A stretch of DNA of 64,000 nucleotides, from NCBI GenBank assembly GCA_038049695.1, contig CP142452.1, positions 79,968,501 through 80,032,500 on the forward strand, given 5' to 3'. The position numbers were made by a program, and so were the translations under genes. Below are positions 14,226-38,829 of the stretch, in pieces (position 1 is the stretch's first letter; each line of letters opens with the position of its first letter). The notes below the pieces were generated by a model. That model had not been told where the DNA came from, ran no database searches, and saw only the letters and a program-made list of their open reading frames with translations. This stretch comes from Cinnamomum chago (taxonomy: Eukaryota; Streptophyta; Magnoliopsida; Laurales; Lauraceae).

Positions 14226-14660
14226 CACTACAAGAAATTGCACTTTCAGCGACGGAGTTTTTTGTCGCCAAAAGTCACTAAAACGTCGGTAAAACACTTC
14301 ACGGCAAAAATACTTTATTTTTTTATAAAAAATAAATCTGTTTTTTAATATACTTTTACCGACGAAAAAAAAACGTCAGTAAAAGTATTTTGAAAAAATA
14401 AAAATAAATAAATTTGTTTTAAATATACTTTTACGACAAAACAACACGTCGGTAAAAATATTTTATTTATTTTTATTTTTTCAAAATACTTTTACTGACG
14501 AAAAAAACGTCGGTAAAAGTATTTTATTAAAAAAAATAAATTGTTTTTAATATACTTTTACCGACGAAAAACAACGTCGGTAAAAGTATTTTGAAAAAAA
14601 TAAAATACTTTTACCGACGTTTTTTTTCGTCTGTAAAAGTATTTTATTTTTTAAAATAAA
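14226..14660. repeat. Left subterminal repeat region of the CACTA element
   Basis: Many copies of TTTTACCGACG and CGTCGGTAAAA alternate with A/T-rich spacers such as TATTTTATTTATTTTTATT. Facing copies form hairpin-capable inverted repeats. In the family such motifs bind the TNPA-type transposition protein. Confidence 0.85.
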
Positions 14661-14999
14661 TATATTTTTTCCAATATAATTTTCCTGTAAACCTGTTTAT
14701 GTACCTGTATCAAAAGATAAACCTGTTCATATACCTATGTTCAATATAAAAAATGCATGCAAACAACCATTGTCATTTTTCATCAACTCATTCATCTCAT
14801 TAAACAAATATTACAATCAATAATGATACAGTCTCATATAAATGTCCAATATACATATACAAATAAACTAAAAAGAATAAAACACATTTAGCTAGTCTTC
14901 AACCGACCCCAAAGCCAACATCAATCTACAATGACAAAAACAACATTAGAATATTTTCAATGAATTAAATTATAAATAAAAGAAAAACATATATGTATA

Positions 15000-16075
15000 T
15001 ATAAATCTTTTCCGAAGTTTTCCGCGGCCTGTTTGCCTGCCTTAAGTGTTGAGAATCGGGCGGTTCTTGCGTTTAATTCGTTAACCGAAAGTCCGATTCA
15101 CTAACCGTAAATTCCTATAATTTACTTTGGCCTTGAACGAGGTACCCGTGCTGGTTTCTGGCATGTCCGATGACCGTTTCCCATTATCGACCTCCAACGG
15201 CCTATTTTCAAGACAAAGTGTTAAGAATACAATAGTTTTAGGTCAAATTCGTTAACTTGGAGTCCGATTTACGAGCCGTCAATTCCTGCAAGTTAATTTC
15301 AACTCGAGCGATGTGGTCGTACCGGTTCTGGACTTTTACGGGGGCCAGTTCCCGTTCCGGACCCCCGGCGGGCCGTTTTTTAGCCTAAGTGTTGGAAAAT
15401 CCGATGTTTTGGCTTCTAGTTTTCTAACCGGGAGTCCTATCTGCGAACCGTTAGTTCCAAGAAGTCACTCTACCCTCGAGCGAGGTGCTCGTGCCGGTTC
15501 CCGATTTTTTCGGGGCCCGATTCCAGTTTCGGACCCCCGGCGGCCCGTTTTCGAGCCTAAGTGTTGGAAAATCCGATGTTTTCGCCTCTAGTACGGTAAC
15601 CGGGAGTAATATCTACGAACCGTCAGTTCCTACAAGTCACTCTACCCTCGAGCGAGGTGCTCGTGCCAGTTTCCGATTTTTTCGAGCCCGGTTCCCATTC
15701 CAGACTCTCGGCAGGCCGTTTTCGAGCATAAGCATTGGAAAATCCGATGTTTTTGCCTCTAGTACTGTAACCGGGAGTCCTATCTGCAAACCGTCAGTTC
15801 CTACAAGTCACTCTACCCTCGAGCGTGGTGCATGTGCCGGTTCCCGATTTTTCCGAACCCCCGACGGGCTGTTTTTGAGCCTAAGTGTTGGAAAATCCGA
15901 TGTTTTCACCTATAGTACTGTAACCGGGAGTTCTATCTACGAACCGTCAGTTCCTACAAATCACTCTACCCTCAAGCGAGGTGCTCGTGCTGGTTCTCGA
16001 TTTTTCTGGGGCCCGGTTCCCGTTCCCCCAGCGGGCTGTTTTCGAGCCTAAGTGTTGGAAAATCCGATGTTTGGT
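15000..16075 (+). repeat. GC-rich tandem array of about 170-base units inside the CACTA element
   Basis: The marker CTCGAGCGAGGTGCTCGTGC and close variants recur near 15135, 15303, 15475, 15649, 15818 and 15971, so about six units of 150-175 bases. Each unit also has CCCCCGGCGGGCCGTTTT, GTTGGAAAATCCGATGTTTT and TAACCGGGAGT. The right half stays open for 188 codons (15485-16051) because two units are near multiples of three. That peptide simply repeats VGKSDVFASSTVTGS. The array is far more GC- and CpG-rich than its surroundings. Confidence 0.9.
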
Positions 16076-17503
16076 ACATACTTAAGTGCCCCAAAATGAA
16101 ATAAAACAAAAAATCCAAGAACTAAATTTGGAATGAACAGAAGAATAGAACATGTTTTCATTTTACATAAACTAAAATAGTACACAATGGATTGCCTTAT
16201 TTGAAGGATAGTTTTTACCGATCACAGTATCCTGCAGTATGTGGGCCCCTGGAGATTTAAACAAGACAGTCGCCAAGCATATCAATTTAGAAAGTCTTAG
16301 CAAAATGGAAAAATCTACACACAGGTGTGAGGCACAGATACATATCAGGGTATCAACTTGATGTTTTAATATTATTAACGTAAAAAATATTTCCTTTCAA
16401 AAAGAAAGAGAAGAACAGCTACAATTAGGCTGGTGGATGAGTCTTCAGGCCCATTAGGATCTAGAGAAAGTAGGATGAAGAAAAATGATTCTCTAGCAAA
16501 AACATATTCCCTTACCTGGATCTACTTGGAGAAGAGTAAAAAGAGAGGTCATTATCAAGGAGGTGGAGGAAAAAGCCATTTTTTCTAGTGAACTTTTTTT
16601 ATTAATAAAAATTGCCAATTAACTATTTAATAAATATTTATTTAAAATACTTTTGAATGGTTTTCTCCTACATGGCTTAGCTTTCTTTGGTGATTCTCCA
16701 CCTCTAATTTTCTCCTCACATTTTCTACCTAGTGGGAATTCTCTACCTTTATATTTTCTCTATATTCAAACTGGATCTTAAGGTTACCATGGGAGCAAAA
16801 ACTGTAAATTAAACCACCTTCGGATGAGGGTATGCATGACTAAAACACTCAACCCAGGTGTTTTTGGCTAGTTAGTCTTCTAACTCTCAGCCAAAATTTG
16901 GACCTAACCAATCAGGTAATAGAATGAGGCCTACAACGATAATCTCAACCCTGAAAATAGAGTATGGTTCCCATTCATCAGTTGGACCAAGCGAATATGA
17001 GAAAAATGTATGGGCAGAGAAAAAAATAAATAAAAGAAAGAGACCTAAGGAAAGGATAGGCGTGCTCCTGTGTCTTTGGCCTTGACAAGTCCCTTGGCTC
17101 TGGATTGAGCCCAAATTTCTCTCTTTAAGGTCTGACAAATGCAGACTCAAATGTGTGAACTATGGATCATTCAGCTCTAGTTCAATGTCCTTTTTTACAA
17201 GATTACATGTATGGTTTTAGAGTAGAGAGTGGTTCTGGGAACAAAAATCTCAACACCCTACCAACAATGCAAGTGCCCAATTGGCTACACACATGTACTG
17301 GTTTTGATTCTGCCTAAAACATGTTGTGACCTTCAAAAAGAAAAAGGAAAAGATAAGTCCAAATCCCAGAAAATGATACATGCAGTTCATGCTGAACAGT
17401 GATTTCCATGTGTGATTTCTCTTCGAGATATTTGATGAAGAGGTGAAGATCAGAGGTCAATGAGATGAATGAGCAAATACCTGTCCTTTAATGATTTGAA
17501 TGG
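16076..17503. other. CACTA interior, no gene seen
   Basis: AT-rich sequence between the tandem array and the last captured SDR exon. It may hold the 3' flank of the captured gene, since it follows the SDR stop codon on the minus strand. An 87-codon minus frame at 16887-17150 is not recognisable. Confidence 0.4.
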
Positions 17504-19575
17504 TCATTGAAGCTGCTCCCCATTTTTCATTAGTGACACAAGGCATTCTTTCCAGTCTGAAACCTTTTCTTCTCCATTCACCACCTATTAAGGCACACAA
17601 TTTTTTTTGTTATTTTCTTACATAGAAGGTAAATGTAGTTTGCTCAAAACTAGGATCAAACACCTCTTGGATGCTTAGCTTGTCACAAGCATTGGCTGCT
17701 ATAAACTTCATATACATTTCTTACTTTACATTCATTTTCAGCCTTTCTCCCAAAGTTATGTAGGACAACAAAAAATCAAAATTTTGCATAGAAATTAATG
17801 AGAATCAACTACTAATGTTCATGAGAGCTTGTATGCCACTGCTACCTTTATAAGCAGCCAGCTGCAAACTTATTATCACTCCATGCCGCAACCAAATAAA
17901 ATTATCCATCAGACAATAAGCAAGTTCATGGAGAAATGAAAACCTGAGATAAAATAATAATATGCTGCACGCCTTTCATATCCCCTATATCTGATAAGAA
18001 GCCCTCCTACAAAAAAATATTGGTAAGGAAGGTTATAACCTATACCCAATTTGCATGGTCATGTAAAAAAAATACATTTGAATGCATCTCAAATTGCAAT
18101 CTGTTTGAATAATTGGCAGTTTAGGTTTCTAATGTGTATTTACTCTTCCATCGTAATAGTTGCTAATGGGTGTCAACGACAATTCTGGATCTCGGGACTA
18201 AAAAGGCAGATAAACAGCATACCACCAAAATGGTTCCTCATTTCCATGACCCAGACACAGAATGAATTAATTACCATTTGTTGTGCCAGAAACTCTCAAC
18301 CCTGTCTTGGTTTACAGTAAATCCAAAAGGGACATTATTATACACAGATGTGAATCTATAATACAGAAACAAATAATAGAAGTGCATCAAGGTTCATATG
18401 AGAAACCCTTTTCCTTTTATCATTATTATTTTTATTGGTAACATAACTCAAACCCACAACATAAGGTTGGAATAGTCACCTTCCACTGCGCCTCTTATAT
18501 ATTCTAGTCACATTAAGCCCTATTATAAGGAACTGTTCGATTAAAATGTTGTGCCCTGTCTTTTATCAATATTTTTTGGAGCTTAGGAGTATAGAGCTAC
18601 AATAAATGAGTTCAAAACACACTTAGAGTCTAAAATACTCTCATAATAACATAACTTTGGATTGCATATTTAAACCGATGCCTCCAAACTAAAAGACAAA
18701 TGAGAGCAAGCAATAAACAAGAGATAGCTATACTGATTATATATTGAAGAATGATTTGGTATTTTGTGAAGCTTAAACATGCTCCACACAAGGGTGAAGG
18801 GGCAGACTGAGCATGGACACATCTGATGCCCAAACTATTCACTAGGTAAATGTCACAGTATAAACAACTGGGCCCAGAAAATATATGAATCCTCTACTAA
18901 TCAAAGTGAACTGCTGATGGATGATGAATGCAACTGTTGAAAAATTTGTAGTCCATTTACTTCCACTGTGGCCCATCAGATGAAGGGACTAGGCTAGTCA
19001 TTTGGACAGGGAACATGCAAGATGGGAACAAGCGATACATGGCTTGGATCTCAGAAACATGTGCCATGTTGTTGTTCCTGTATCAAGGCACATATGGGGT
19101 CCAATAATGATGTCTTTGATCTTCCACACACACCTGCCCCAGATACATAGATGTGCTCTTAGCAAAAAACTAAATCCAGAAAATGATTGGAGTAACATCA
19201 ACTTACATTGGAAGGGCATATGATTGCACGGACTCCTTTGAAAGCCTTTGTAAGGAAAGATCTATCACTTGCATCTCCAGCCATGGACTTCACATAAAAC
19301 AAGAGAACCAAGTGAGAAAAAAAAATCCCTTGAAATAATACTGGGGACTCCTTTTTTCAAAAACTATCATATTCTAGATTAACCATTGGAGAAAACAAAA
19401 GATGCCTAGAAAAAATAACGCATTAAAGAACATTCACCAAATTTCCTAGATACGCATGTATATCCTGCTGAGTTCTTACCTCAACATAAGTTCCAAAGGC
19501 ATCGAGGGCAGCCCTCTTATCCTTCACCAGTGCCTTCACTCGAGCTCGTTTGAGAATCAGTGAGAGTATCACCAT
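17504..19575 (-). pseudogene. Captured fragment of an NAD(P)-binding atypical SDR gene (three exons, middle exons missing)
   Basis: Seen on the minus strand: exon 19575-19480 encodes MVILSLILKRARVKALVKD, KRAALDAFGTYVE and ends at GAG|GTAAGA. Exon 19287-19207 encodes SMAGDASDRSFLTKAFKGVR, AIICPSN and ends at AAT|GTAAGT. Exon 17584-17504 encodes VVNGEEKVSDWKECLVSLMK, NGEQLQ and a stop. All three have AG acceptors, and exons one and two join in phase. Known: the series VKALVKDKR, AGD.SD...L..A..GV..IICP, then VVNGEEKVSDWK at the C-terminus fits plant NmrA-like, Rossmann-fold atypical SDRs (often plastid). The Gly-rich nucleotide-binding start and the catalytic middle are absent: nothing between 19206 and 17585 matches the expected central exons. 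A complete enzyme cannot be made. It lies directly downstream of the topoisomerase I fragment, in the same orientation. Confidence 0.8.
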
Positions 19576-19944
19576 CTGCATAGGTCCGACAATGAAGCTC
19601 ATCGCAAAATCACATTTTTTTCACTTTATGTTCATGTCTATTTGCTAAAAATTCTATATGCTCTAATACTCTAACAAGCACTGGGGTGTTGTATTGTCTG
19701 ATCCCTTTTCTAATAGAAAATCGACCATCATTTGAATCCTTCTAATGACTCCATGTCTCTTTTTCACTGACCTTTAAGATCTCAGCCTTCCAAAATATCA
19801 GGTGGGAAACAAGTGAAATGTCAAAAGAGACGGTCTCACTTCAGACCTGGAAATTAAGGCTTATATCCCTAGTTGTGAAAGCCACCCCCACACATCAAGC
19901 TAACCCAAACTGCAGACAATTTGGGCAGGGAAAAAAATGGCTAC

Positions 19945-20312
19945 CTTTTCAATCGAAACTTCATGGCTCTTGCACCATGCAACTGATATCCTAGGATCAA
20001 GGTACTTGATCTTTGATGTGCCCAACGCTAGAGTCTTTAAATCCTCTTTGATCTTCATATCGAACTCCATTTTCTCAATCTTTGCATTTGTCTGAGCAAG
20101 TTTCTTTTCTAACCTGCAGATCAGTGGATAATTAAACTAATAAAGGAGGCAATGATCAAGCACAAACAATGAAGAAAAACTCAGAAGCAGTGAGAGTTTT
20201 ATTACGCTTCAGGTGCCAGGTTCTTCTTTGTCTTCCCATCAGCATCTTTCAATGGTGGCTTCCCTTTCTTAGCCCTACTCAAATCCACTTTCAGGCTCTT
20301 CAATACACCATG
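19945..20312 (-). pseudogene. TOP1: Captured fragment of DNA topoisomerase I (linker and C-terminal catalytic-tyrosine exons)
   Basis: Seen on the minus strand: exon 20312-20206 encodes GVLKSLKVDLSRAKKGKPPL, KDADGKTKKNLAPEA; its donor is GAAGC|GTAATA. After a 92-base intron with a CTGCAG acceptor, exon 20113-19945 encodes [40 protein letters not shown] and [16 protein letters not shown], with donor AAAAG|GTAGCC. The exons join in phase across A|L. Known: LALGTSK.NYLDPRI.VAWCK is the C-terminal domain of eukaryotic type IB topoisomerase, and the Tyr of YLDPR forms the covalent DNA link. The preceding basic helical part is the linker. The usual last exon (a FAWAMD-type end) and the core domain with its Arg/Lys/His residues are absent. 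A further possible upstream exon ends at 20651 (VSMDELK|GTAGGA). As part of the CACTA element this is a transduplicated fragment, not a working enzyme. Confidence 0.88.
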
Positions 20313-22439
20313 CTCATACCATGAGACCAATCACTAATACAAGTACTAAAGATCTAACACAAAACAAAATTACAGCCATTTTCCTCCAACAGAGAGAAAC
20401 AAGCACTGTAGTTAGAAAAGAATTTATTAAACACATGTTCTCTCCACATGGCAGCACATGCCAAGATGACAGGCGTATGCAAGATCCAAAACATCAAGAA
20501 GGTGGACCAAAAATGCAGAGATGCACTTGTGGGCCAATTCCACATGCTCCCACATATAAGGGGACATGGAAAGGGCACCACTATTAGCAAACCTCGTAAT
20601 TCAGAAAATAATATCACTAGTGACGCTATGAGATATGTAATGAATCCTACCTTCAGCTCATCCATTGAGACTCCACCAAACTTCTCCAATACTAAACAAG
20701 GTTCATATTGCAGACACATGAGACCAATCAAAGTTATACATTGAGACTCCACCAACCATTAAATTAAAACATCAAGCAAATAGATGAATATGTTGAATTA
20801 TTGTTTGAATATAAAACTGAGATAATATAAAGCAGCAACAAATGTAACATTTACCAAAAAAACAAAAAAATTCTTACAAATGTAACAATTCAATTCATGG
20901 AAAGGGCGTTTGTTTTGAAAGCTGCTCCAATTTTCAAATACCAGCCCCCATTGTGGAGATACAGAAACTGGAAAATACACACCTGCAAGATCGTCAACAG
21001 TCCAAAGGATTATTAAATCCATAGAAGCTTCAAAACTCCTAATTGATTAAATCCCACAAGAAGACTAGCTTCTGGTCTTGGTCTTTAGAATATCATGGCA
21101 ACCACATTAACATGCTTTAGTGTAACATTTCATTACTCACACTCGCCCATATTGGTCTCAGGATACTGCATAGTTTCACCAAGTAATTGGTTAGACTCTA
21201 TATTCTATACCAGCATAGGAGGTTTGATCTTCAATTTTGTTATTACAATATTAAAGAGAAGAATCATTAGCTAACGAGCCCCACAATCATACTCATGTCA
21301 TTATTAGAGAATATGAAGTGCTTCCCTGTACAATTCCCCCCTGCAAAAGGATAAACCTCATAAAATTTCCAAGTCTAGCAAGTTTTCTAAAATTACTTTG
21401 GATGAGTGATCCTCAATTTTGTTATGCTTTTTTCATGATGGTTCGAAATTAAGCCCATGAAACAGGGACTACTGAGTTTCATTTGCAAGCCACCATTTGG
21501 ATGAGTCATGAGTTATGAGTGTGACAAATGGGTTCAGTTGTACTTGGAGGGAAACACAATATTTATGGTTTAGAACATAGAAAACTGAATTTTGAAATAG
21601 AGTAATGAGGAGAATAAACATCAGTCCATATCAAGAAATGAATACAATGAGCAGTCTCATTTAGTTGTAATTGCAAAACAAAATGTGTATTCTCATCAAC
21701 CCAGGATTCTGGGGCTATTGAGTTTGAAAATTAGCCTTGTCAGCACGACTAGACATTACTTTGTGGTTTTTCTTTTAATCGCTTTCTTTCTACTAATTTA
21801 AGAAAACTCAATTAATGCTATAAGATGAAATCAACAATGCTATTACAATAAACGAAAAAATGGATAGAACTTTTGAAAAATGCATGCTCAGAATGCTCAT
21901 TAGTTGAAACAGATTGCCTTAATTCTACAAGTGGGCACAAGGAGCTTCATATTCAAGAAAGAAACTAGTGTAATCGGAGGTTATGAAGATCATGATTATA
22001 GCTTCCCCTAAATAGCTTTTTCTTATATTATAAGAGAATGGAGTGAAGAGGCTGATACATTGGCAAGAAATTAGAAGACTCCCATCTTTATAAAGTTTTG
22101 TTTCCTTTCCCTGTTTGTGTATTATATATATTTTTTAGGGTCATCTTTTTTAAGGTTATGTCCTTTCCATGATCTAAATTCATACTGGGTTATCATTTTC
22201 TGACCCAAGCCTTACTAGAACCCAAATCACCCACAACAAAAGTTTTTGCTCCAAGACTAGCAAAACAAAAAAATGCAGATAACTAGTAGAACCCCACCAT
22301 CAAAAAAATAATTGAAATAGAATAAAATAAGGTACTGAAGAAAAGAAAAAACAGAGAGTAACAATAAGAAATGCAACCTATTAACCACGAAAATTCCAAA
22401 CAGAAGCTGCAAATACCCATATCAGATAGCATCGAAGAG
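20313..22439. other. CACTA interior, intron-like DNA
   Basis: AT-rich sequence upstream (minus sense) of the topoisomerase exons. A candidate exon at about 20690-20651 ends VSMDELK before GTAGGA. Nothing else is recognisable. No transposase motifs were found on either strand. Confidence 0.4.
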
Positions 22440-22605
22440 AGAAGAGATGAGAAAGTTACTCTACCTGCAGAGAGGGGAGAGATGCAGAGGCAGCAACGGT
22501 AGAGAGGGTCCGAGCAGAGGCAGCGGCGTGAGAGAGGGAGACCCTTCCTCGAGCAACGATCGGTTTCGGGTAGAGAGAGAGAGAGAGTGAGAGAGCAGAG
22601 AGAGC

Positions 22606-22640
<35 letters not shown>

Positions 22641-22810
22641 CGAGCGAAAGAGAGCGCAGAGATTGAGCCAGGGAGAGAGATAAATAGCAGAGAGAACAGA
22701 GAGAGCAGAGAGAGCGAGACAGAGAGTGAGAGAAGCGCAGATCGAGAGGTAGAGCGAGAGAGAGAAAAGAGGGAGAGGGATAGAGATAAAAGAGGCCTAT
22801 TGGGAGGGAG
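22440..22810 (-). promoter_or_regulatory. GA/CT-rich leader-like region near the right CACTA end
   Basis: A dense GAGAGA tract (CT-rich on the minus strand) contains a non-repetitive core at 22480-22570. It ends with CTCTCTGCAG|GTAGAGTAAC on the minus strand, a plausible donor. Inference: it could be the 5' leader and first intron donor of a minus-strand transcript running into the captured exons. The plus-strand open frame here is only a translation of the GA repeat. Confidence 0.35.
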
Positions 22811-22814
22811 AGGG

Positions 22815-23516
22815 GAAAATAGGATCTTTACCGACGTTTTTTTTTCGTCGGCAAATTAATTTTTTCTTCGGTAAAAATTAATAAATTTTTATTAATAAAA
22901 AATAAGTTAAAAATTAACAACTTTTACATACGTTTTATGCTAAACGTCGGTAAAACACTTACCGACGCTAATTTTCATCGGTAAAACATTAATTTCGTCG
23001 GCAAAATAAAAAACATAAATAAAAAATAAATTCCTTTTACCGATGTTTTATTTTTCATTGGCAAATCAAAAATAAAAATAAATAAAAAATAAAAAGACTT
23101 TTACCGATGTTTTTTTCGTCGGCAAAATAAAATAGAAAAATAAATAAAAAATGTAAAGACTTTTACCGACATTTCTTTTTCGTCGGCAAAAAGAAAATAG
23201 AAAAATAAATAAAAAATGTAAAGACTTTTACCGACGTTTTTTATCGTCGATAAAACAAATAAAACGTCACTAAAATTCATTTTACCAACGTTATATAATT
23301 CGTCAGTAATAATCTCTCATTTTCACTTCCCTATCTTCCAAATTGAACTTTGCCAACGTTTTTAAGGAAAACGTCGGTGAAAGTCATACTTTTACCGACG
23401 TTTTTGTATAACCGTCGATAAAAGTATGACTTTTACCGACGATTTATAAAAGCATGACTTTTACCGACGATTTATAAAAGATTTTAGCGTCGCTAAAAGT
23501 GCATATTGTTGTAGTG
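22815..23516. repeat. Right subterminal repeat region of the CACTA element
   Basis: Repeated TTTTACCGACGTTTTTT and CGTCGGCAAAA motifs with AAATAAAAAAT spacers continue to the GTAGTG terminus. The region is longer than the left array, which is common in this superfamily. Confidence 0.85.
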
Positions 23517-23530
23517 ATTATACAGGTATT

Positions 23531-33637: not shown

Positions 33638-34289
33638 TACAATAAAGAGAAATAAATAGAAATCAACGGTTTCCTACTCTCTTTAATAAAAAGGAAATAA
33701 TAAATAGAAAGTGATGGTTTTTTCCTCTCCTTAAAAACGATCATCAATGAATGCCTCTGGCTACATGTCAAAGCAAAAGTAAGGAAACTTCCTCCTCCCG
33801 CCTGAGTTCCACAGAACAGACAAATAAGACCCAGGCCTTCAAAACCTAAACCCAGATCTTCTCTGATCCAACCATGGATCCTTTATATTATATAAAGGAG
33901 TCTCAGAGAGTCACACTTAGTGGGGATTGTATTCTTTTGATATCTGCCATACTTGATTTAACGTAGGACCCGTAGCATGCGGGCCACATCTGTCACTTAA
34001 TCCATATATTTTCTTATTGATTACTACTTAATTTGTTTGTTAAAAAAATTTAATGATTTTAACTTTTATTTAATTTGCAAGAGACTAACCACGAGGGTTT
34101 GGGCTAGTGGTACAATTAACTTGAATGACGTTCTTGTGGTTCCACAATTTACAAAGAATTTGATTTCATTTCATTTAGCCAACTTACTTCTGACATGGGT
34201 TGCATTGTTAAATTCTTGCTAATTAAGGATGGGCGAGCCCAACAGACACTAGCCATGAGAAGTAGCAAAGAAAAGCTCTGATAGAAATC
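33638..34289 (+). repeat. Directly duplicated segment, copy 2 (no Harbinger insertion)
   Basis: Collinear with 30096-30283 plus 31256-31780. It includes the copia-like pol snippet (NLNDVLVVPQFTKNLISFHL, about 34110-34180). The right end runs directly into the minus-strand copia fossil at about 34300. Confidence 0.8.
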
Positions 34290-35981
34290 TTGAAATACAA
34301 GAGAATAGCCATCTAACAAAAATTGTCCCCACACTCAACAGATTTGAATCCAAGTCTGGCACATACAATACATTTTTAATGGAATCAAAGCCACATGAGT
34401 TTACCTTCACAGTGCCTCTGCCTTGTGCTTCACGAATGTTTCCATCTCCCATCTTCACCTTGCTAGTCACAGACTTATCTAAACTGATGAAGGCCTCCAA
34501 GTTACCTGTCATGTGATTACTACAACCACTGTCCACAAACCAATCAGTTGGACCACATTCTTTAGCAGAAAAACATGCCAAACACAAGTTTTCATTTTCA
34601 GCTCTCTCTTTTTCTGTATCTTGTTCTTCAGCAAACTTAGCATATTTTTCTTTAAGTCTACAAAATCCTTCTATTTGACCAAACTTCTTATTTTAATAAC
34701 ATTGAATCCTTCAGTTTTGATTTTCACCTTCATTGTGTTGTTGATGGCTGCCTCCTGAGCAATTTTCACCTTCATTATGTTGTTGATGGCTGCCTCCTGA
34801 GCGTCCTCCACCTCTTTTTCCTTTATAGTAGCGTCCACCACGTCCTCTACTTGTTGAATTCCTATTGCTAGAATCACCTGTACTGCCATCATTTTCTTTT
34901 GACAAATTCGAAAAGCACTTTCAACAGAGTTTTCATGCTGCCTTTTTAGTCGCTCCTCATGAGATTGGAGAGATCCAGACAATTCATCAACAGTGAGTGT
35001 GGTTAAGTCTTTAGATTCTTTTATTGCAGCCACAACATGATCTAATTTCACAGGCAAACTACGCAAGATTTTCTCAACAACTCTTTGTTCAGGCAAATCA
35101 TCCCCATATTTTCTAATTTGATTGACTATATCTTGCACATTAAAGGTGTAATCATGCACAGATTCACTATCTTTCATAAACAAACTCTCAAATTTTCTAC
35201 GTAGATTTTGGAGTTTGATAGTCAATACCTTATCACTGCCTTTGTAAACTTTCTCCAATGTATCCCAAGCCGCTTTGGATTTTGTGGCTGCTCCAATTCG
35301 ACGAAAGTTTGACTCATCGACTGCTTGCTGGATGAAGTACAGTGCCTTAGCATCCTTCTTCTTCACATCTGAAGATGCTCCATCTTCATAGCCTTTCTCC
35401 ACCAAGTCCCACAGATCTTGTGGTACAAACAGGGTCTTCATCTTTGTGCTCCAAATGTCATACCCACTCCCTTGAAAGAATGGGATCATTGGTTGCTGCG
35501 ATGGCCCAACGCCCATACTGTTGTTCGCCATTAGCCAGCACCCAGCTAAATCGTTCTCTGATACCAATTTGTAAATGTGACAAGCCCTTTCCAAATTAAA
35601 GCACTGAAACATAGTGCTCTGCAGAACCTGTTGTATTCCCAACAAGAAACAAGGAAGCACAATAACTATACTATACAACTATTAGATTGAGAGGAAACAA
35701 ACTGTGATGGAGATCAAGTTAGGAAAATCTGAACTCAACTGATGTATCTCATTAAGATTCTGCAGCAGTTTAAATACACAGAAATAACTACTCACTTTCT
35801 AACAAATAGCAACAACTCACCCACTAACCACTTTTTCAACACTAGAGAAGTGTAAGACACGTACATAACAAATTAAACTTATAACTAGGAACTCAATAAC
35901 AAAACTGACTGAACCCATTAGAAAAATCTACCCAACAGATATGACCCATTATGTAGAACCCATTTCTGCATTATTTCAACA
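34290..35981 (-). mobile_element. Ty1/copia fossil: LTR, primer-binding site, gag and protease
   Basis: Seen on the minus strand, in order: an LTR 35981-35570 (TGTTGAAATAATG to TTTACA, with a TATTTAAA box); a primer-binding site at 35566-35556 (TGGTATCAGAG, complementary to initiator tRNA-Met); a gag start near 35531 (MANNSMGVG, then GSGYDIWSTKMKTLF, a UBN2/DUF4219-type gag with LRRKFESLFM and VEKILRSLP); and lower down the protease region (WFVDSGCSNHMTG, VLYVPDLDSNLLSVG). The rest of pol and the second LTR are missing: the element is cut off near 34300 against the duplicated segment. It is broken and treated as a fossil. The DUF247 gene's stop lies about 155 bases from the LTR. Confidence 0.88.
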
Positions 35982-36137: not shown

Positions 36138-37848
36138 TCAGGTGAATACAGCGTAGTACGTCTGCACTGTGGTGAGAATGATGACAAAAGTGGCTGCAAG
36201 GAAGGAGAGAATCGACCATGGACTGCTGAAATACTCTTGCTTGAGTTTTAACTGCCATTTGGGCCATATTTTCTGTTGATGTTTGATAACTTGTTCAAAC
36301 GATTCGGCTAGATAACTGCTCCTAAGACCCGATAAAGCAATCTCCTTGCAGAGATCGTTGAAGAGACGTGCCACCTCCTCGTCGTTGCCCAGATAATTTT
36401 CTATGATTGCAGATTTTTTTAATATCTCCACATCTCTAGGCGTGTTCACCAGATAATCCATGAAGTTGCAGTAGCTGGTGAAGTGACTACCCCGGTTAGG
36501 GAAGCACTGCTCAAAGGCAATGAAGTTTCGAAAGAGAGATTTGGTGGGATCCTGCACTGAAAGGCGCGGCATTTTCATCGTTCCCTCTTCAAATTTAACG
36601 TCCAAGAAGCTTTTAGCCTTCACGCACCGAAACTGAACTCCGGCCTCGTGGAGCTCCGCTGCACAAGGAATTACCTCCAGTGCTGGTGGTTCGTTTCTAG
36701 ACTTGCATGAGGATAGAAAGGGAAGGCCGTGGGTTTTCATTTTCTTTATGACTGCAGGGAGTTTCCAAGTACATTCCATAGATTCAGACTTTTGGCCTGA
36801 TGGAGATGGGAAACAATGACATCTGGGAGGTAGAAAGGGAAGGATTTTCTTTACGACAGACTGTTTCGCATTACGATCCACAAATTCAGATTCTTGGCCG
36901 GATGGAGATTCGGATTCTTGGCCTGATGGAGATGGGAAACAGTGACATCTGGAAGGTAGAAGGGGAAGAGTTTTCTTTTTGACTGCAGGGAGTTTGGCCA
37001 CAGATTCAGACTCTCTTATGAGAGAAGTTGGTTTGAGGAACAAGTATACTAAATGCAGCAAATGATGAAAACCACGTACATTTAGTTCTGGTTTTTTTTT
37101 CTCTCTTTTTTTTTTTAATTTCTTCAGCAAAGATGTCTATAAGAATCTTAAGGTCCCATTCATGCTCAAATGGCATGACAAAGCTTTGGATGAAAATAAT
37201 GGCCTTTTTCCAAAGAGCAAACCTCCTCCGTTGACCAGTGAGGTCCCAAAGGCGTTCCAAGACGAAGAAAGGGAGCTGATTCTCCAAAAGGAGCATGTCG
37301 TGGCCAATTCGAGACAACATCCCACGAATAGTATAAATGGGGTCTTCATCGTTGCTATGAATTGGCAGGAGTTGAAATAGAAAAGACTTAGCCCTATTCA
37401 AGAGCAGCTGAATGATGAACAAACCATCCAGCAACATCATCTCTATGAATTCGTTTGCCTTCAACTTGATGTCGCCTGAGTAACAAGCTCGCGCTCGTGG
37501 CTCTATTTCCTTCATCGCCTTCCAGTACTCGTTAAAGTCGTTGCCCGCTCCATCATGGAATAATTTCTTTAGATTGCGCCATTTGACCTCCTCCATGTAA
37601 TGTAGGCTTGACTTTCCTTGATGATATGGGCCGATGGAGACCATCAAAGGGTCGTAAGCGTCATGGTCGACCCTGCGGACGACTATGGGCACTCGGCAAA
37701 TAGTGAACGGATGAGAGGGCGGGCAGGAGGCAATTTTAGCTTTCATGGATTTAACCCACAGATCATCCACGTCTACTACCACATGATCATTCCCATGCTT
37801 CCCTGCCTCACTGGCATTTCTCTCGTCTCCTTTTTTCTCTTCCTCCAT
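36138..37848 (-). pseudogene. DUF247 (UPF0481) membrane protein gene with a homopolymer frame change
   Basis: Seen: from ATG at 37848 (MEEEKKGDERNASEAG; the frame also opens at a TTG further up) the first half carries ICRVPIVVRRVD, DPLMVSIGPYHQGK, FIEMMLLDGLFIIQLLL and HDMLLLENQLPFFVLERLWD. The second half, in the next frame, carries HHLLHLVYLFLKPTS, IPCAAELHEAGVQFRC, a long FIAFEQCFP/FMDYLVNTPRDVEIL block and a C-terminal membrane helix (SPWSILSFLAATFVIILTTV) before the stop at 36138. Known: this is the full DUF247 order, usually one exon of 400-550 codons. The frame changes by one base in an A-rich stretch (T runs at 37092-37100 and 37106-37116 on the plus strand). This is either a recent null allele or a base-calling error in a homopolymer. 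The linker contains a 126-base in-frame tandem repeat (RCHCFPSPSGQ twice). Biochemical function is unknown; some grass DUF247 genes act in self-incompatibility. Confidence 0.9.
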
Positions 37849-38829
37849 GTCACTCAAGGAATAGTATCAAATAATGAGAGAGAGAGAGAGAGGGAGCCGT
37901 CAATGATCTTGGAGAGATCGGAAAGGACTTTAATGATCGTTGCGACAGAGCTTTGCAAACTGATCTTGGAGAGAGAACAATTTATAATGTCTTAATCCGG
38001 GAGCACTTGAGATGGGATAAGGGCAGGGCAAGCGAGCACCACTAGTTTTTAACTCCGGGAGTGTATACTGTCTTAATTACGCCAGTGACGTACGGTCGTA
38101 GAACACGTAAAAATCAACTAACTACTTTCTACCAAGATAAAAGAAAGAAAAAAAAAAAAAATAGAACTCACTCCGGTTGTAGTATACATTCTCAAATTTT
38201 ACCGTGGTCTTATTATTGATTATTAAATTATTAATCGGTGAAATAGGGTTGCAAACGGGTAAAATGGAAACTCAAGATTGTATTACTTCTTTCCACACAC
38301 ACCAAAATTCCCTAGATAACACATCATTCCATTTTCCTCTTTCTTTCCACACACATCCTTTTTCCTTTCTTCCGACGCACATTCTTTTTGCTTTCTTCCT
38401 ACACACAAATCTCACATCCAAACCTCTCCACATCTCCAGCATTCCCACTGTGTTTCCAGGCCTTAAGGCTATCTCATCTTCCAAAGGTAAATATTTTTCT
38501 CCATCGTTACCATTTCATTCTTCTTCCCTTGTGTTAACCAAGACCGTTATGTGAGGGAAGTGGAGAATGGGATAGAGAAGAAGATGAGCCTGTGTGTGAA
38601 AAGAGAAAATTTATTTTAGGGGGATTCGGCGAGAGGTCCTTGAACATTTCACTTTATTGCCTTAAGTCCACAATCTTTTTTTATAGTGTGAAATGTCATT
38701 TTTCCAAATTTGAAAACTTAAAGTGTCTAATTTACCCTTTCTTCAAATCATATCTCAGGATTAGTGGGATAAGCCATTAATAATGGTCAACTACCATTAA
38801 ATTAGTTACGATTAATAAAATTCCACTAA
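37849..38829. other. Upstream flank of the DUF247 gene and intergenic DNA
   Basis: A short (GA)n tract at 37874-37894 lies in the likely 5' leader. The 116-codon plus frame 38204-38554 is His/Phe/Ser-rich with no known family. No promoter element stands out. Confidence 0.4.

Follow-up and report, generated by a model that had tools for sequence, protein, structure and literature searches.

The window analysed (64,000 nucleotides, C2:79968501-80032500; positions without a prefix are those of the window) raises the question of whether exons of two unrelated host genes, DNA topoisomerase I (TOP1) and an atypical SDR, are carried there by one CACTA element, and of how they would have come to lie together. 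Parents and further copies were sought in a genome of 1.06 Gb in 14 contigs. Positions 14226-23516 are very probably a CACTA (En/Spm) element of the Pack-CACTA kind, probably non-autonomous and inserted here once, which captured DNA of the SDR gene and of TOP1 and spread afterwards. The coordinates of all features are collated in Table 1.

Boundaries and contents of the element

The element extends from 14226 to 23516, with the left end CACTACAAG at 14226 and the right end TTGTAGTG up to 23516, and is flanked by ATT on both sides. The first-pass annotation, in which one CACTA element with both ends, an ATT target-site duplication (TSD) and ACCGACG arrays had been proposed, was thereby confirmed at these positions. 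The features of the CACTA (En/Spm) superfamily that were observed are terminal inverted repeats (TIRs) starting with CACTA, a 3-bp TSD, and subterminal direct and inverted repeats. Exact ACCGACG units, counted on both strands, were absent between the two arrays and occurred once in the outer 54.7 kb, with 0.68 expected by chance per window (50 dinucleotide-model sequences). Inside the element no full-pattern ends (CACTAC[AT][AG] or [CT][AT]GTAGTG) were found; bare CACTA and TAGTG do occur there. No transposase domain was detected in the 10 frames scanned (of 176 frames of at least 30 aa in the window).

Table 1. Features of the element, with positions in the window, and two-ended elements elsewhere in the genome.
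Feature	Coordinates	Strand or TSD	Remarks
TSD ATT, left	14223..14225		matches ATT at 23517-23519
Left TIR, CACTACAAGAAATTGCACTTTCAGCGACG...	14226..14255	+	first 30 positions: 25 identical to right end; also detected as inverted repeat
Left subterminal array, ACCGACG / CGTCGGT units	14226..14670	+	7 exact ACCGACG
Tandem array, ~172-bp GC-rich units, about five copies and degenerate ones	15174..16072		matched in copies C2a, C6, C1a, C10, C2c
Captured atypical SDR gene segment	16427..19701	-	likely parent C3:23182248-23186489; 1,003 bp missing at 17817/17818
SDR last exon S-5 with stop codon	17504..17584	-	SDR exon chain
SDR exon S-4, no donor	17817..17861	-	shortened by 1,003-bp deletion at 17817
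SDR exon S-3	17944..18006	-	SDR exon chain
SDR exon S-2	19207..19287	-	SDR exon chain
SDR exon S-1	19480..19575	-	0/96 mismatches to parent
TOP1/SDR junction, 2-bp microhomology, within hybrid intron	19700..19701		spanned without a break by the alignments of C2a, C6 and C7
Captured TOP1 gene segment	19700..20666	-	likely parent C3:127693104-127694071; 968 bp aligned across introns at 96.6%
TOP1 exon T-B, C-terminal domain	19945..20113	-	8/169 mismatches to parent; Pfam Topo_C_assoc
TOP1 exon T-A	20206..20297	-	0/92 mismatches to parent
Hybrid exon-like stretch x3	20651..20691	-	TOP1 only up to 20666 (MDELK)
Mosaic filler, no coding identity found, parts of it repeated at many loci	20667..22460		at least 42 matches (40/183 candidates scored)
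CT-rich tract, 80% C+T, no ATG; possibly 5' untranslated exon-like	22462..22827	-	judged from composition
Right subterminal array and right TIR	22827..23516		8 exact ACCGACG in 22820-23516
TSD ATT, right	23517..23519		pairs with left ATT
C12 element	C12:29872655-29884172	TTC	SDR and TOP1 sequence
C6 element	C6:23337285-23347387	CTA	SDR and TOP1 sequence; left end CACTG, one base off
C11 element	C11:8088986-8095154	AGT	SDR sequence; TOP1 part lost
C2c element	C2:107853269-107861794	TTG	SDR and TOP1 sequence; rearranged
Second-family element	C2:3483999-3492770	GTA	right end's last base changed
Second-family element	C9:27599169-27605444	CAT	TIR CACTACACCAAA

Likely parents, junction and lost exons

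The two parts of the SDR piece (16427-19701) aligned to C3:23182248-23186489, introns included, and were 96.8% and 95.8% identical to it. With the SDR exons of the window alone, the Pfam search gave NAD_binding_10 at 4.5e-4 and 20.6 bits, under the 27.2-bit cut-off; of the shuffled controls, 3/10 matched at E up to 1 (best 0.061, an unrelated family). Addition of the exons that are absent in the window and present at the parent locus raised the match over the cut-off (3.2e-13, 50.4 bits). A DNA search with 17490-19600 returned at least 41 matches (40 of 100 candidates scored) and an SDR protein search of the genome 46 (all 54 candidates scored); all SDR exons sought were present at two loci, the C6 element and C3:23.18 Mb. 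The C3 locus has an additional first exon (MAMASVYSS, ATG at 23180243) and, upstream, a likely nucleotide-binding exon VLVTNGDSEMGQ, both of which the element lacks, and no ends of the window's CACTA family were found in the 17.9 kb examined there. Because it holds all captured exons, upstream exons that are missing in the element, and matching exons and introns, C3:23.18 Mb was taken as the likely parent of the SDR piece. From the look of the first exon its product may be plastid-targeted, and it may resemble pTAC16 or HCF173.

The TOP1 exons matched Topo_C_assoc in Pfam (7.2e-21, 74.3 bits, cut-off 25.1) and DNA topoisomerase I chains in the PDB (best E 1.5e-10), among them the human 1nh3. 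A genome search with the PF01028 profile gave 46 matches (all 59 candidates scored), the best at C3:127.695 Mb. This locus contains core-domain exons and the captured exons and runs on, beyond the captured part, to a last exon IFNKSLLAKFAWAMDVEPTFRF ending FRF; C3:127.69 Mb is the likely parent of the TOP1 piece. In a 24-residue stretch of the TOP1 protein compared between window and parent, six stretches from other copies keep N in 6/6, R in 5/6 and the second P in 4/6. The wide distribution of TOP1 pieces, which come in several truncated forms, follows from a DNA search with 19900-20340: at least 40 matches, window and parent included, were obtained with 40 of 96 candidates scored. Other TOP1 exons (PF01028 profile positions 20-64, 117-166 and 188-218) were also seen as fragments at many dispersed loci, and repeated piecemeal capture or duplication of TOP1 may therefore have occurred.

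The element lies on C2, and its two likely parents, both on C3, are loci apart from it and not genes continuing into the flanks of 14226-23516. Since the introns match these parents at about 96-97%, capture took place at the DNA level, as the parent search and intron alignment suggested by the first-pass annotation were expected to reveal; the retention of introns, which had been called unusual, is what such capture yields. The claim of minus-strand exons of two genes with proper splice sites held in most respects: AG precedes all of them and GT follows all except S-4, which has no donor, and the exon with the stop codon. The two parents share TC at 19700/19701, where a TOP1 intron meets an SDR intron.

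The middle SDR exons had been described as lost, and they are indeed absent in the window. Parent positions 23184119-23185121 (1,003 bp), which contain the remainder of exon S-4 and one further exon, are missing in the window and in copies C2a, C12, C11, C1a and C2c, and are present in C6. As the C6 element keeps this stretch, capture included the middle exons and their deletion came afterwards.

To the right of the TOP1 piece, a search of the genome for a parent of 20667-22460 showed only repeat mosaic. A third gene built from a conjectured start exon x2 (21038-20983) and x3 was rejected, as only MDELK of x3 is TOP1 at the TOP1 locus; Pfam and PDB searches with x2-x3 gave no match. At the chosen splice cut-offs no chain with a start exon, x2-x3 included, was obtained from the real sequence, and 2/20 shuffles gave one. 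Scans of viral_contigs and genome_contigs found no relatives.

Sister copies and a second CACTA family

Twelve loci, taken from the left-end and SDR DNA search matches, were examined as possible sister copies. Both ends of the window's CACTA family together with a matching 3-bp TSD were found at 4/12 (4/9 when the parent and the second family are omitted). A single end was seen at C2a, C7, C1a, C1b and C10, within the limited stretches examined, and none at the C3 SDR parent, C2b and C9 in the stretches examined there. Other two-ended elements thus carry the same fragments, as the first-pass annotation had suggested looking for, and copies at other sites with their own TSDs show that the composite was mobile after capture. 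The C2c copy is a rearranged mosaic in which TOP1 pieces flank the SDR piece on both sides and the left-arm match ends at 16427.

A second CACTA family (TIR CACTACACCAAA, repeats TTACGGCG) also contains part of this SDR gene. Its SDR piece corresponds to parent positions 23181971-23185277, and that of the window's family to 23182248-23186489; each piece reaches past the other into the parent, so neither derives from the other as they now stand. The simplest reading is that the two families captured the SDR gene independently; alternatively, a larger intermediate common to both may have existed. In a tree of nine sequences the parent, C2b and C9 cluster (0.956) with C6 adjacent (0.729), the inner branches being near zero. 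Compared with the C3 SDR parent, both families agree against it at 12 sites, the window's family alone differs at three and the second family alone at one; the 12 shared sites make it possible that another allele or copy was the source, or that the parent has changed since capture.

The following history is proposed. An ancestral element took up genomic DNA, namely the 3' half of the atypical SDR gene and the C-terminal part of TOP1, and the pieces were joined at the junction with the observed 2-bp microhomology, presumably by break repair or template switching. The composite was then dispersed to several chromosomes, as the two-ended elements with different TSDs show; going by known CACTA biology, a transposase from elsewhere would have acted on the TIRs and subterminal repeats. 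One lineage, to which the window's element belongs, lost the 1,003 bp in the SDR piece and with it the middle exons. Most likely the exon pieces are passengers subject to drift.

An unlikely alternative is that the fragments were first captured by an element of another kind (e.g., a Helitron) and acquired CACTA ends later. It would accommodate the abundance of TOP1 matches (at least 40, most of them counted without a check for CACTA ends), the dispersal of other TOP1 exons (46 matches) and the break of C2c at 16427. The junctions at 19700 (C2a, C6, C7) and 16427 (C2a, C12, C6, C1a), however, lie within CACTA-type copies, and the second CACTA family holds the SDR gene piece alone; both argue against this order of events.

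Coding potential and relation to known elements

Exons T-A, T-B, S-1, S-2, S-3 and S-5 form a chain that is in phase and open over 194 codons including the stop, and joining of the exons across the TOP1/SDR junction keeps the frame through to the SDR stop. Exon chains were scored with general splice-site weights. That the chimeric chain would be transcribed or translated in at least one copy, spreading a new protein, and that the SDR gene would besides be a capture hotspot for two CACTA families, is quite unlikely.

It is very improbable that TOP1 and SDR exons form a new, functional chimeric gene, giving one in-frame spliced transcript to the SDR stop and kept by selection. Such a gene would fit the open chain and the finding that the exons of the window are closer to the SDR parent than the remainder is (2/365 exon versus 75/2871 other differences, p=0.010); exons differed less than the remainder in 12/12 copies, with p<0.05 in two (window 0.010, C2b 0.025; uncorrected). 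From copy to copy, on the other hand, 15 pairs were compared, of which two had too few sites; in 13/13 pairs exceeding 100 exon sites, exon and other rates did not differ significantly, a comparison of low power. The TOP1 piece diverged from its parent at similar rates in exons (8/276) and elsewhere (24/691; exon limits set 3 bp off), and the substitutions in T-B mostly change amino acids (six of eight, as read from the alignment). Moreover, S-4 is without a donor, T-A has a low-scoring one (the parent has the identical exon sequence and GT there), the S-1 acceptor in copy C2a is AA, and the start exon is conjectural. The lower exon divergence is read as constraint on the parents and not on the copies, in comparisons with little power for weak selection; constraint on a copy is possible.

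That two unrelated insertions, or a nested CACTA pair, mimic one element is most improbable: such ends are common (a search with the left 301 bp gave at least 220 matches, with several in each element, from 40 of 899 candidates scored), but ATT stands on both sides, full-pattern ends are absent internally, and the TOP1/SDR junction is common to C2a, C7 and the two-ended, TSD-flanked C6. The ends were not found to belong to two separate CACTA copies.

For the Pack-CACTA element preferred here, the closest precedents are in print. Pack-CACTA and Pack-TYPE elements of Arabidopsis, maize and rice contain captured coding DNA, in maize often from more than one locus (PMC8903248, PMC13317346). The element resembles them in having CACTA ends around captured coding DNA, and it shows the mark of this class, host coding DNA between TIRs with likely parents elsewhere in the genome; it differs in that one gene piece occurs in two CACTA families and that the composite spread with internal deletions. 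The soybean CACTA element Tgm-Express1 (wp allele) carries pieces of five genes in 5.7 kb, with chimeric transcripts shown (PMC1947982). In both elements, unrelated host genes are represented by exons and introns that still have their splice sites; here two genes were identified in 9.3 kb, and it was possible to resolve their likely parents, the sister copies and a deletion that came later. CACTA elements of Chenopodium combine captured gene fragments with satellite arrays, the fragments lying on the 5' side of the coding sequence that belongs to the element (PMC8978399); gene fragments and internal tandem arrays are common to both, and in contrast to those elements, no transposase domain was seen here in the frames scanned.

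Multi-gene and satellite capture by CACTA elements is thus already published, so two genes in one element are not as unusual as the first-pass annotation held; the element exemplifies, in well-resolved form, a process already known, and its novelty is modest. Among the titles listed, none dealt with CACTA elements together with topoisomerase I, and capture of one gene by two CACTA families was not reported in the titles and abstract openings listed in a narrow check. Unusually much of the history can be read here (likely parents, junction, later deletion, sister copies with TSDs, and the same gene in a second family). The element is therefore well suited to tests of how coding DNA is acquired and rearranged by Pack-CACTA elements, and of whether certain genes are captured again and again.

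Elsewhere in the window, a DUF247 gene (in Pfam a plant protein of unknown function) at 36141-37866, which marks the DNA as coming from a plant, extends over two frames and possibly contains a frameshift. Retrotransposon fragments were observed as well, with an integrase at 1-1293 and with copia-type gag and Pol_BBD at 34252-35678.
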